Shown here: positions 586 through 34,055 of the stretch, piece by piece
Layout: every line of letters begins with the position of its first letter
Numbering within the stretch: position 1 is the stretch's first letter
Assembly (NCBI RefSeq): GCF_000166775.1
Contig: NC_014720.1
Location: 2,226,501-2,290,500 of the forward strand
Source of the DNA: Caldicellulosiruptor kronotskyensis 2002
Lineage (GTDB): Bacteria > Bacillota > Thermoanaerobacteria > Caldicellulosiruptorales > Caldicellulosiruptoraceae
Reading direction: 5' to 3'
Length of the DNA: 64,000 bases
Program-made: the position numbers and the translations under genes
Notes under the pieces: generated by a model
What the model saw: the letters and a program-made list of their open reading frames with translations, nothing else
What the model was told of the DNA's origin: nothing
Database searches by the model: none

Positions 586-1527
586 TTAAAACAACGCTTT
601 TTCTGGGTCAAGTCTTCGAACAATAAGATTTGATGTAAGAACCAAAATAAACCCCATTATCGACTGATAAAAGCTTGCAGCAGACGCCATTCCTATATCG
701 TTCATGCCCATAAGAGTTCTATAAACATAAGTGTCAATAACATTTGTAACATCATAAAGTGCACCACTGTTCATAGGAAGCTGATAAAAAAGTCCAAAGT
801 CTGCATAAAATATTCTACCTATACCCAAAAGAACAAGAACAACAACAAGCGGTGATAAAAGCGGAATTGTAATATGTTTTATCTGCTGCCATTTTGATGC
901 ACCATCAATCAAAGCTGCTTCATAATACTCAGGATCAATTCCTGTAATTGCTGCTAAATATATGACTGCATTGTAACCAGTATATTTCCACAAATTTGCA
1001 AGTATTAATATCACCGGCCACGGTTTTGTTTCAAAATACCATGCAATTGGTTGTAAACCCAGTTTTGGAAGAACCATTGTATTTAAAATCCCTAAGTCTA
1101 TACTCAAAAACGCAAATGCCATATACGCAACAACAACCCAAGACAAAAAATATGGTAAAAACATTACTGACTGGTAAAATTTTGCCATAAATCTTGATCT
1201 CATTTCGCTCAACGCAATAGCCGTTGCAATTGCCGCCAAGTTCCCAAAGACTATAAAAGCAAAGTTGTAAAGAAGTGTATTTCTTGTTATAATAAAGGCA
1301 TCAGGTGTTTTAAAAAGAAATTCAAAATTCTTTAAACCCACCCAGGGGCTTTTAAGAATTCCTACATCATAGTGCACATCTTTAAATGCTATGATAAGCC
1401 CAAACAGAGGTAAGTAAGAAAATGCTATTAAAAGAACAACCCCCGGCAGTGCCATTAAGAATAGAGGAAAGTTTTTATTCAATTCTCTCAAAAAACCGCT
1501 TCGATATGTGCGCTGATCGTTTGCCAT
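586..1527 (-). CDS. Sugar ABC transporter permease, LplB-like
   Basis: This is a 313-residue inner-membrane permease of the MalF/LplB type with about six hydrophobic segments. The EAA loop that contacts the ATPase is visible near the C-terminal third (EAALIDGASKWQQIKHITIP). The reading frame could start at a TTG 66 bases further upstream. I prefer the ATG at 1525-1527 (protein begins MANDQRTYRSGF), because AAGGAG lies 12 bases before it and a promoter-like pair (TTGAAA, 16 bases, TATAGT) would start transcription close to the upstream TTG. It is followed by the second permease, and together they form the membrane channel of one importer. Family assignment is firm; the sugar is not known. Confidence 0.9.
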   Translation of the reverse strand: MANDQRTYRSGFLRELNKNFPLFLMALPGVVLLIAFSYLPLFGLIIAFKDVHYDVGILKSPWVGLKNFEFLFKTPDAFIITRNTLLYNFAFIVFGNLAAIATAIALSEMRSRFMAKFYQSVMFLPYFLSWVVVAYMAFAFLSIDLGILNTMVLPKLGLQPIAWYFETKPWPVILILANLWKYTGYNAVIYLAAITGIDPEYYEAALIDGASKWQQIKHITIPLLSPLVVVLVLLGIGRIFYADFGLFYQLPMNSGALYDVTNVIDTYVYRTLMGMNDIGMASAASFYQSIMGFILVLTSNLIVRRLDPEKALF

Positions 1528-7480: not shown

Positions 7481-7837
7481 TTAGATAAAGCTTGCTAACC
7501 AAATTCCCACACCAGCTGCAACTATTCCAAAAATGATAGAGACAAATACATAAATAAAAGCCTTCGTGTGTTTTTCTCTCTTTATATACCTTGATGTCTC
7601 AATCATAAACGCAGAGTATGTGGTGAATCCGCCAAGAAGACCAGTCATCAGAAAAAGTTTGTATTCACTCGAAAGATGGTTTGTTGACAAATATCCTATT
7701 AAAAAGCTCCCTATCACGTTTATAAACAATGTAGCAGCAGGATGGTCTTTATCCATTACCTCTCTAAATATTTTCCCAACTATATATCTCAAGATTGCTC
7801 CAATTACCCCACCAACTCCAACAATGAGATAGTTCAT
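7481..7837 (-). CDS. crcB: Fluoride channel CrcB/Fluc, subunit 2
   Basis: This 118-residue protein has four hydrophobic helices and Fluc family hallmarks: the GGxxGAxxRY opening (GGVIGAILRY), the NVIGSFLIGYL segment, and GLLGGFTTYSAFMIE with the conserved phenylalanine/threonine track. Fluc proteins export fluoride as a dual-topology dimer. Some Firmicutes use two paralogous genes that make a heterodimer, and a second crcB lies directly upstream with a 4-base ATGA overlap. Both are controlled by the fluoride riboswitch at 8292-8381. Start ATG 7837 is supported by GAGGAG upstream. Confidence 0.95.
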   Translation of the reverse strand: MNYLIVGVGGVIGAILRYIVGKIFREVMDKDHPAATLFINVIGSFLIGYLSTNHLSSEYKLFLMTGLLGGFTTYSAFMIETSRYIKREKHTKAFIYVFVSIIFGIVAAGVGIWLASFI

Positions 7838-8232
7838 GCTGCCTCATACTCCTCTTTTTGCTGTCTTTCTGAAACAGCCCTTGCAAGTTCAAAGCCAAAA
7901 ATTGAAGCTAAAAGCCCAAGTACAATGGATAAAAGAGGATAGACAATCGCAGCTGTAAATTCTCCTTTCATCAAAAACCTCACAATTTCAAGTACAAATG
8001 TAGAAAAGGTTGTAAAGCTGCTTATAAAACCTGTTGTTATCATATGTCTTAAGGCGGTTGAAATCTTTATGTGTTCTACCGTTATCTCTGCAACAAAGCA
8101 CAAAACAAAACTGCCAACAACGTTTATAAAAAGTGTTGTAAAAGGAAAGCTGCCAAGGCTCAGCTGAGATATAAAAAATCTACAAACAGCACCAAAAAAA
8201 GCTCCAATAGCAATTGCAACAACGTTTTTCAC
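7834..8232 (-). CDS. crcB: Fluoride channel CrcB/Fluc, subunit 1
   Basis: This protein of about 132 residues is a paralogue of the following gene, with four membrane helices. The conserved segments are GAFFGAVCRFFI, FINVVGSFVLCF and GFISSFTTFSTFVLE. It is the first gene after the fluoride riboswitch and should be made when intracellular fluoride rises. The frame opens at TTG 8259, but AAGGAGG overlaps that stretch. GTG 8232 (8 bases after GGAGG) fits best, with ATG 8238 only 2 bases from it. Low GC and codon use match the neighbours. Heterodimer formation with the downstream CrcB is inferred from the gene pair. Confidence 0.93.
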   Translation of the reverse strand: MKNVVAIAIGAFFGAVCRFFISQLSLGSFPFTTLFINVVGSFVLCFVAEITVEHIKISTALRHMITTGFISSFTTFSTFVLEIVRFLMKGEFTAAIVYPLLSIVLGLLASIFGFELARAVSERQQKEEYEAA

Positions 8233-8291
8233 GGCCATTGCCTCCTTCAGTAAAATCAAAGTAGTCAGCAGGAAATTAGGCCTATAAAATA

Positions 8292-8492: not shown

Positions 8493-8750
8493 ATGCAGAA
8501 AATCATTAATATAAACTTACCATTAGAAATCTTTTTAGCTTTGCGAGAAGATGAAAACAAACTTTCAAGTGAAATAAAAAAACTTATAGCTGTCAAATAC
8601 TTTAAAGAAAAAAGACTGTCCCTTGGTCAAGCAGCAGAACTCGCCGGTATGAGTATTGCAGAATTTATTCAATTACTATCCGAGCAAAATATTTCTGTAT
8701 TTAACTTTGATTGCTTTGAAGAAATTAAAGAGGATGTAAAAAATGCTTAA
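8493..8750 (+). CDS. UPF0175 family protein, likely antitoxin
   Basis: This 85-residue protein has the UPF0175 pattern: a short N-terminal beta strand (INLPLEIFLAL), then EIKKLIAVKYFKEKRLSLGQAAELAGMS, a helix-turn-helix-like segment, and a short acidic tail. Members of this family are often encoded just upstream of DUF3368 PIN-domain proteins and are regarded as antitoxins or DNA-binding partners. Here the stop overlaps the start of such a gene by 8 bases, indicating translational coupling. A TATAAT lies at 8447-8452 without a clear -35 element. The pair is transcribed divergently from the crcB operon. A toxin-antitoxin role is inferred from family and context. Confidence 0.8.
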   Translation: MQKIININLPLEIFLALREDENKLSSEIKKLIAVKYFKEKRLSLGQAAELAGMSIAEFIQLLSEQNISVFNFDCFEEIKEDVKNA

Positions 8751-9228
8751 GGTAGTTGTTAATTCAACTCCTTTAATTGCGCTAAATGCTGTAAATCAAT
8801 TATCAATTTTGGAGGCTCTCTACAAGAGGATAATTGTGCCATATGGAGTATATGAAGAAGTATTTTTTAAAGCCCCTACAAACAAGAAAATTGATCTTTC
8901 TCTATTCGATTATATCTTAATAGAAAGAGTAAAAAACGCATATGCAAAAGAATTGCTTCAGACTTCCTTGCATAAGGGAGAAATAGAGGTAATTCTATTA
9001 GCGCAAGAAATAAATGCAGACTTATGCATCATTGATGATTATTTAGCAAGAAAATATGCCTCTCTATTTGGCCTTAAGGTTACAGGAACTATAGGTGTTT
9101 TATTAAGAGCAAAAGAAAATCAACTAATCAAGGAAATTAAACCTATTCTTAACGATTTAATTAAAAATGGAATATATATCAGTCAAGAGCTCTATGAACA
9201 TATACTAACGCTTGCTAATGAGAATTAA
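8743..9228 (+). CDS. DUF3368 PIN-like domain protein, likely toxin
   Basis: This 161-residue protein has the DUF3368 layout: an opening strand VVVNSTPLIAL, a central HKGEIEVILLAQE and IIDDYLARKYA, and TGTIGVLLRAKE near the C-terminus. The family adopts a PIN-like nuclease fold, in which acidic residues bind metal to cleave RNA. The first acidic position, usually Asp in PIN domains, is Asn7 here; Glu and Asp in the GE and DD motifs remain. Asn at this place also occurs in some family members as I remember them, so loss of activity cannot be assumed. It overlaps the putative antitoxin by 8 bases and ends 4 bases before the convergent cation transporter gene. Confidence 0.82.
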   Translation: MLKVVVNSTPLIALNAVNQLSILEALYKRIIVPYGVYEEVFFKAPTNKKIDLSLFDYILIERVKNAYAKELLQTSLHKGEIEVILLAQEINADLCIIDDYLARKYASLFGLKVTGTIGVLLRAKENQLIKEIKPILNDLIKNGIYISQELYEHILTLANEN

Positions 9229-9232
9229 ATTT

Positions 9233-10090
9233 CTACTCTTCTTCCTCAGGTTCAATGTGGATTGTTATATACGAATTTGGCAGAGCAGATTTTATATCAT
9301 TTTCTATCTGGTTACAGAGGTTGTGAGCGTCAATTAAAGTAGTTGAATTTTCCATTCTAATGTGAACATCAATCTCGCGCCTGTCTCCACTTTTCCTGGT
9401 TCTGAGCTTGTGAAAGCTTGTAACCTGGGAGTATTTTCTTATTATATTTTCAATTATCTCAATCTCGCTTTGAGGAAGACTCTTGTCAACAAGGTCACAG
9501 AGAGCTTTTTTAGTCAAATCAACAGAAGCTTTTATTATCATCAGGGCAACAATGATAGCAATTATCGGGTCTATAATGTACACATGTGTAAGTTTTATTG
9601 CAACAAGCCCTAAGAATACTCCAAATGAGGTAAACACATCTGTGAAAAGATGCCAAGCATCTGCTTCCAAAGCCACAGAATCTGTTTTTTTAGCTATTTT
9701 AAAGAGTTTTGAGGATATAAAAAGGTTTACAACGGCTGAGATTAGCATAACCAAAAGCCCTGCTTCTATTTTCTCAACTTCTCCACCCTTTACAATCTTT
9801 TTTATTGCCTCATAAATAATCATAGCTGCTGCTAAAAATATTAATATCGCTTCAAATGCACCAGAGACATTTTCAAACTTACCATGACCAAAAGGATGGT
9901 CACTGTCTGCTGGTTTTCTTGCCTGTTTGATGGAAAAATATGCAACCAAGCTTGCTAAAAGGTCAATGCCAGAGTGAATTGCCTCTGATATAACAGACAC
10001 AGAACCCATAATGCTACCTGCAATAAGTTTGAATAAAACCAAGGCTGTATTAGAAAAAACTGACAAAAGTGCTGCACCTTGCTTTTCCAT
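9233..10090 (-). CDS. Cation diffusion facilitator (CDF) metal efflux transporter
   Basis: This 285-residue inner-membrane antiporter exports divalent metal ions. It has six hydrophobic helices. The metal-site residues are in helix 2 (EAIHSGIDLLASL) and helix 5 (EADAWHLFTDVFTS). The conserved cytoplasmic loop is DHPFGHGKFE, and the C-terminal ferredoxin-like cytoplasmic domain spans about residues 205-285 (REIDVHIRMENSTTLIDAHNL region). The leader at 10148-10270 resembles a NiCo riboswitch, which would make Co2+ or Ni2+ likely substrates; sequence alone does not settle specificity. GGAG lies 14 bases before the ATG, a rather long spacing. Confidence 0.93.
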   Translation of the reverse strand: MEKQGAALLSVFSNTALVLFKLIAGSIMGSVSVISEAIHSGIDLLASLVAYFSIKQARKPADSDHPFGHGKFENVSGAFEAILIFLAAAMIIYEAIKKIVKGGEVEKIEAGLLVMLISAVVNLFISSKLFKIAKKTDSVALEADAWHLFTDVFTSFGVFLGLVAIKLTHVYIIDPIIAIIVALMIIKASVDLTKKALCDLVDKSLPQSEIEIIENIIRKYSQVTSFHKLRTRKSGDRREIDVHIRMENSTTLIDAHNLCNQIENDIKSALPNSYITIHIEPEEEE

Positions 10091-10147
10091 ATACTTTCAC
10101 AAAACTCCTTTCATTATAAGCTTCTTCACAAAAACTATTAAAACAAT

Positions 10148-10270
10148 AAAAAAATCCTGCCAAGACTCATGTTTTGTGTAAAAAACATGGGTCCCGCAGG
10201 ATTTTTTCATCCCTGCTGCCTGGTACAATTTCCAGGCCCGAAAAGAGCTTTTAAGCGCTCTTTTCTGACC
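10148..10270 (-). promoter_or_regulatory. NiCo (czcD)-like riboswitch with intrinsic terminator
   Basis: The minus-strand leader can fold as a four-way junction. An outer GGTC/GACC stem (10267-10270 with 10190-10193) encloses GAAAAGAGC/GCTCTTTTC, CCTGG/CCAGG and GCAGGGAT/ATCCTGC stems. The junctions read CGGG, GGCAGCAGG and TGCGGGACC, similar to NiCo aptamers as I remember them. The last strand AAAAAATCCTGC also pairs with GCAGGATTTTTT at 10148-10160 to form a terminator with a T tail. Metal binding would favour the aptamer and allow read-through into the CDF gene. The switch-like fold and its target are clear; the exact class is less certain. Confidence 0.6.
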
Positions 10271-10302
10271 ACTTCTTAACAGAAGGTATTAAATTTTTCA
10301 TG

Positions 10303-11172
10303 TCACTTGAGCTTTATTTTAACATCAAAGAGGTCTTTTGTAAAGACCTTTTTGGCATCTGAAAAGCTATTTATGGTTGTAAAGAGAAGCTTTTCACAAA
10401 TAATTTCAACCATGTTAATAGGCAAATCGATAAAGGGTGTCACGTTATATATACATATATCTTTTAGAGGAAGAAAATCAACACAAATCTCAGAAAGAAA
10501 AAAGGACTTTTTAAAAAATTCAAAATCTTTTATCACACCCATTTCAGGATAGCACACTATTCCTCTTTTTGACGCATAAGCTGTCTTGGCTATCTCTCTG
10601 AATATAAACACCACATCTGCAGTTTCAAACAACTTCTCTTCTTCCCAGCAGTTTATTACAATCGTTCCGAACTCTCCTAAAAGCTCATCAGCTATTTTTG
10701 TCTCTTGAAATGAATCAAAGGAAGTATAAAGAATATCTGTATTTTCCGCAAGCTCATATAAAAGTCCATTTTTTTTAGCTTTTTCAAGCCCAACTATTCC
10801 TATCTTTCTATTTTTTAAACGTTGACCGTACTTTTTTAATATTTCTCTTACAATATGATATGCAATAAAACAATTAATGTGAATATTTTGTTCATATGTC
10901 CAATCAAAGTGTATTACTCTTCCTCTTCTTTGCTGGTCAATAAAATGTTTTATTTTTTTATGTTTTTTTGAAACCTTCTCCATTTTCGGAAATATGAAAA
11001 ATTCTAATCTCATTTCTATTCCATTAATTAGCCTTATATACTCTTCGAACTTGGGTTGTGAATTTGCAACCAGAAATTTTCTCAAAAATAGAGGAAAAAA
11101 CTTTGCATATTCTGGAAGAAAAATTCTACTTTCACCTTCTAACACAAAAGTAATAGTATAAATTTTTATCAA
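10303..11172 (-). CDS. Uncharacterised protein with Rossmann-like segment
   Basis: I do not recognise a named family with confidence. The 289-residue product has no signal peptide or membrane helix. Residues about 120-150 (NRKIGIVGLEKAKKNGLLYE) resemble the glycine-rich turn of a Rossmann nucleotide-binding fold, and the context recalls shikimate/quinate dehydrogenase-like proteins. A catalytic pocket cannot be identified. The frame opens at TTG 11172, 19 bases after the preceding gene, with only a weak ribosome binding site. It is the last of three co-oriented, closely spaced genes (12655-10303), which probably act together. The NiCo-like leader follows its stop codon. Confidence 0.6.
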   Translation of the reverse strand: MIKIYTITFVLEGESRIFLPEYAKFFPLFLRKFLVANSQPKFEEYIRLINGIEMRLEFFIFPKMEKVSKKHKKIKHFIDQQRRGRVIHFDWTYEQNIHINCFIAYHIVREILKKYGQRLKNRKIGIVGLEKAKKNGLLYELAENTDILYTSFDSFQETKIADELLGEFGTIVINCWEEEKLFETADVVFIFREIAKTAYASKRGIVCYPEMGVIKDFEFFKKSFFLSEICVDFLPLKDICIYNVTPFIDLPINMVEIICEKLLFTTINSFSDAKKVFTKDLFDVKIKLK

Positions 11173-33851: not shown

Positions 33852-33886
33852 GAAATGTAAATTGAATATAAGCTAATAGTAAAAGT

Positions 33887-34002
33887 CCATCCTTCGGGGC
33901 GGGGTGAAATTCCCCACTGGCGGTAAAAGCCCGCGAGCAAAAGCTTTTCTGGCTTTTGCAGAACCGGTGAAATTCCGGTGCCAACGGTTACAGTCCGGAT
34001 GG
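33887..34002 (+). promoter_or_regulatory. FMN riboswitch (RFN element)
   Basis: All conserved RFN parts are present in order: the closing stem CCATCC...GGATGG, TTCGGGGCGGGGTGAAATTC, CCCACTGGCGG, AGCCCGCGAGC, AACCGGTGAAATTCCGG, GCCAACGGTTACAGTCCGG and ATGGGAGAAGG. Flavin mononucleotide binding favours the downstream terminator, so the rib operon is shut off when flavin is plentiful. Confidence 0.98.
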
Positions 34003-34055
34003 GAGAAGGATTGGATGTGTAAGGAAGATTTCTTATACATCTTGTCAATAGCCCA

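Follow-up and report, generated by a model that had tools for sequence, protein, structure and literature searches.

A sub-threshold leader of the NiCo (czcD) class very probably acts as a terminating riboswitch before the one detected CDF exporter gene of Caldicellulosiruptor kronotskyensis

In the window, the 64,000-nucleotide stretch of Caldicellulosiruptor kronotskyensis DNA analysed here, the leader of a cation efflux gene is very probably a riboswitch of the NiCo (czcD) class, an ON switch that acts through transcription termination on the only CDF exporter gene that we detected in the genome. We computed the fold, the family match, the conservation, the shared bases, the energies and the gene assignment, and we carry over metal binding, the identity of the metal and the ON direction from the class. 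Judged by its sequence, the segment 10270-10190 is a real and conserved member of the NiCo class that scores below threshold, and no new kind of element (Table 1).

Table 1. Parts of the leader and the gene behind it, in window positions.
Feature	Position	Strand	Remarks
Promoter-like site TTTACA-17-TAAAAT	10344-10316	minus	10/12 consensus matches; inside 3' end of upstream ORF 10303-11172
NiCo-class aptamer, four-way junction P1-P4	10270-10190	minus	Rfam match spans 10187-10282
P1 5' strand GGUC	10270-10267	minus	pairs with GACC 10193-10190
P2 hairpin, 9 pairs	10265-10257/10248-10240	minus	2-nt bulge of Rfam consensus absent
First GGG tract	10239-10237	minus	two P2/P3 junction Gs and first P3 base
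P3 hairpin, 6 pairs	10237-10232/10223-10218	minus	
P4 hairpin	10216-10212/10200-10196	minus	3' strand doubles as part of terminator 5' arm
Second GGG tract (GGGAC)	10195-10193	minus	two P4/P1 junction Gs and first base of P1 3' strand; also in terminator stem
Intrinsic terminator hairpin	stem 10211-10145; U-tract (seven U) 10154-10148	minus	
AAGGAG, likely ribosome binding site	10110-10105	minus	14 bases 5' of ATG; from sequence
CDF cation efflux transporter gene, 285 aa	9233-10090, ATG at 10090	minus	

Pfam places the controlled gene in the CDF family (PF01545, E 5.1e-52; PF16916, E 1.1e-24), and it is the sole PF01545 match in the 2.84-Mb genome. The initial annotation had put the leader 58 bases before a cation efflux gene; the gene is as described, and 57 bases separate the last U of the tract (10148) from the ATG (10090). 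Across all 13 clade members the promoter-like site keeps identical hexamers and an identical spacing, and transcription would start at about 10309 on the minus strand. The upstream ORF whose 3' end this site overlaps (10303-11172, minus strand, 289 aa) returned nothing at E<=0.001 when searched against Pfam and NCBIfam.

Elsewhere in the window, a fluoride riboswitch (RF01734, 8324-8387, minus strand, 51.4 bits) is followed by two crcB genes for fluoride exporters, arranged in tandem (7834-8259 and 7481-7837), on the same strand as the NiCo-controlled gene and downstream of it. An FMN riboswitch (RF00050, 122.2 bits) lies at 33886-34014 on the plus strand. On the opposite strand, in the interval that separates the fluoride genes from the metal efflux gene, a UPF0175 gene adjoins a DUF3368 gene (8493-9228, plus), the layout of a VapBC-like toxin-antitoxin pair.

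The initial annotation had assigned the leader to the NiCo/czcD class and named a covariance-model search as a check. Such a search supports the assignment: in a focused scan, the NiCo model RF02683 matched over its full length (model positions 1-96 of 96) with an E value of 2.3e-6, though at 35.1 bits against a gathering score of 37, which is a reporting threshold and not a structural feature. Because this copy lies 1.9 bits under the gathering score, a standard Rfam scan misses it, and our scan of the whole window at that score did not report a NiCo element. Searched with RF02683, the genome gave a single match (E 4.2e-6) and 14 control genomes gave none. The low score probably reflects the short P1 and the unbulged P2.

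The same arrangement recurs throughout the genus. An RF02683 match precedes the same CDF gene in all 12 genus genomes and in one genome of the sister genus (n=13), with scores of 31.3 to 44.7 bits; at this orthologous site, four of the 12 genus copies exceed the gathering score, as does the copy from the sister genus. The latter (L013) scored 38.7 bits in the genome search yet was absent from two cmscan runs on its locus, a discrepancy for which we suspect the speed filters. The other 24 genomes searched in the class, all outside the family, gave no match to the same model, and a survey of the phylum found a match in 98 of 398 genomes, above the cut-off in 71. Both GGG tracts, read as CGGGC and GCGGGAC, are invariant in 13/13 clade members. 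Among the 83 loci that we read, all contain [CU]GGG[CU] and 82 contain GGGAC.

We next consider how the aptamer and the terminator compete. The terminator uses the 3' strand of P4, the closing strand of P1 and one GGG junction, so the earlier proposal that the last stem and a strong terminator are mutually exclusive holds, with both P4 and P1 sharing bases with the terminator stem. In folding computed for successively longer transcripts at 37 C, P4 remained part of the minimum free energy (MFE) structure up to an end at 10155; the terminator was favoured by 3.0 kcal/mol at end 10150 and by 8.7 kcal/mol at 10145. At 75 C, all computed energies were small, between -7.6 and -12.6 kcal/mol, and by 10155, one step earlier, the aptamer was lost. 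The aptamer thus has an opportunity to act while the U-tract is still unfinished, and a modest energy gain from binding could settle which structure wins. A crude test found a terminator overlapping the aptamer in 13/13 clade members and in 64 of the 83 loci, and failed in the other 19. Terminator pairs showed no covariation beyond that of shuffles (95/500 as high), and a simple terminator scan did not list the hairpin at 10211-10145.

According to excerpts of PMC7689651 and PMC7917058, the published mechanism of the NiCo class is that metal binding leads to read-through of a terminator. Applied to this leader, the mechanism would run as follows. Once transcription has begun near 10309, the aptamer P1-P4 would fold first. 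If no metal is present, completion of the U-tract would let the long terminator hairpin capture the junction GGG together with the 3' strands of P4 and of P1, and transcription would stop. By analogy with the class, a transition metal lodged between the two GGG junctions would hold P4 and P1 in place, the terminator would not form, and the exporter would be made.

In the solved NiCo structure, as described in excerpts of PMC7689651, the metals are held by G45-G47, G87 and G88. By analogy, the two GGG tracts of this leader are probably the metal ligands, and they would correspond base by base to the Gs of the crystal numbering. The metal itself is a matter on which the sources differ. The class, for which cooperative metal binding is expected, was first described for Co2+/Ni2+. 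Excerpts of PMC7689651 state that czcD expression in Clostridium is promoted by Co2+ and Ni2+ but not by Mn2+ or Zn2+; portions of PMC7689651 and PMC9434800 report an Fe2+ response of a czcD riboswitch, and that Fe2+ agrees better than Co2+/Ni2+ with the metal levels estimated for cells. That Co2+/Ni2+ is the natural ligand of the NiCo class is disputed. We therefore give a little less than an even chance to a reading that narrows our best explanation, in which the fold is of the NiCo class and the metal sensed here is Fe2+, or another, in place of Co2+/Ni2+. The reported Fe2+ response and metal levels speak for this reading, while the expression results from Clostridium count against it, and nothing in the window discriminates between metals. 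The transporter leaves room for it: the protein passes the general CDF superfamily model only, and its scores for MntE, FieF, DmeF and the other NCBIfam equivalogs listed, named for a metal or a function, fall far below the respective cut-offs, which means that the choice of metal is not settled by the protein. A further possibility, that the clade-specific P1 and first junction and the missing P2 bulge alter metal preference or cooperativity, making this leader and the other low-scoring members a distinct subtype of the class with a different natural metal, strikes us as unlikely.

The details of P1 also bear on whether the leader belongs to another riboswitch class, or is a new metal-sensing leader that merely resembles NiCo. 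Its P1 is unusual, with only four pairs and a poor fit to the consensus register, which has an internal loop and in which two of the four outer pairs form, and the score lies below the NiCo cut-off. In all 12 genus copies (11 distinct rows), every pair of GGUC/GACC forms, and NiCo matches from two other genus-level sources, L146 and L153, have the same P1. Of the 83 loci, 17 contain the string G-GU-CAR, namely the 12 of the genus and L146, L147, L153, L155 and L156; because five of these lie beyond the genus, we regard the P1 variation as lying within the NiCo class. A shifted P1 (GUGG/CCAU) was also tried and rejected, as it pairs 91.7% of P1 cells, versus 97.9%, and fails in the GCGG members L005 and L008.

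Searches with other models point the same way. In the rest of Rfam, the next best family at the aptamer site was a microRNA model (E 0.44), and no other riboswitch family appeared there at E<=10. The yybP-ykoY model RF00080 found nothing genome-wide at E<=10, while the same search gave matches in nine of the 14 control genomes. For a reciprocal test, we built a covariance model, R1, from the 13 clade members alone and searched 70 distant NiCo loci. At E<=1 it made 35 matches, 34 of them on the RF02683 site, and left 36 of the 70 distant RF02683 sites unreached; at E<=0.01, 12/12 matches were on site. The one off-site match, in L131, had an E value of 0.02. R1 also matched the opposite strand of the window at 10226-10308 (19 bits; E 0.012, or 0.546 genome-wide), which probably arises from hairpins that read alike on both strands. 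Given the full-length match, the orthologues over the cut-off and this reciprocal result, we consider a different or new class very improbable, and the new metal-sensing leader that had been kept as a fallback is not needed.

At the 83 NiCo loci, a profile made from the clade identified a CDF gene downstream in 64; the downstream genes of 14 carry P-type ATPase motifs, and five were given no assignment. Relatives of the CDF protein in named genomes left 80 loci, the best 58% identical and none a close relative, in a collection from which records near the window may be absent. At 13 of these 80 loci, Rfam at the gathering score found no NiCo element, and it missed L001 too; at E<=0.1, the same 13 gave one, in L088. 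There, on a Bacillota metagenome contig, a NiCo match at 744-836 (plus strand, 35.0 bits, E 3.4e-4) ends 76 bases before the CDF relative at 913-1755. On another contig, from a Thermoanaerobacterales metagenome (L097), a cobalamin riboswitch (RF00174, 1-126, plus strand, 74.4 bits) with its 5' end cut off lies about 1.4 kb upstream of the CDF relative at 1501-2352. Among the matches listed for the Caldicellulosiruptor riboswitch literature, no title or abstract opening concerned NiCo.

We then asked what chance alone would produce. The four-way-junction fold with GGG junctions noted in the initial annotation was confirmed on the minus strand, and its P1-P4 order agrees with the RF02683 model. 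The RNA 10285-10170, which leaves off most of the terminator 3' arm, folds at -42.5 kcal/mol (z -4.9; shuffle mean -26.1), and 10285-10140, which includes the terminator, folds at -62.9 kcal/mol (z -8.35); 0/200 shuffles were as stable in either case. The shape of a four-way junction is weak evidence by itself, and conservation is stronger evidence against chance than the folding statistics. The 13 clade sequences reduce to 12 distinct rows, in which 99.7% of cells are paired and both sides have changed in five of the pairs, all located in P2 and P3. In a shuffle control that leaves relatedness in, 0/500 shuffles matched the percentage paired, the pairs changed on both sides, the cells so changed or the covariation score; the fifth measure, further pair types, was not above shuffles (457/500 as high). 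P1 gave no covariation, as three of its four pairs are constant and the only change in the fourth is a break in a single sequence; nor did P4, which never varies in the 12 distinct rows. That the leader is a constitutive terminator only, with its upstream folding due to chance, is scarcely credible: dinucleotide shuffles of the aptamer do give a four-way junction in the MFE of 151/2000 and the hairpin is strong by itself, but 0/2000 are as stable, the junction bases are invariant in 13/13 members, P2 and P3 hold compensatory changes, and the NiCo family match stands against it.

These results show that the curated RF02683 cut-off hides real NiCo members, as eight of the 12 genus copies fall below it, all before the same gene. 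As the C. kronotskyensis genome has a single match each to the NiCo and CDF models, the pair also makes a simple system for asking which metal the class senses, a disputed point.

Compared with known systems, the leader is most like NiCo RF02683. It shares with that family the four-way junction, both GGG tracts, CAG at the first junction, GGCA ending P3 and the terminal GGGAC, as well as a terminator that overlaps the aptamer and a CDF gene downstream. It differs in P1, which is GGUC/GACC here and acuG-Ag-C/G-A-Cagu in the consensus, and in a P2 that lacks the 2-nt bulge. The yybP-ykoY RNA (RF00080) is likewise a metal-sensing four-way-junction RNA, one that controls Mn2+ homeostasis genes according to excerpts of PMC6754395, but unlike its members, our leader gives no match to that model.
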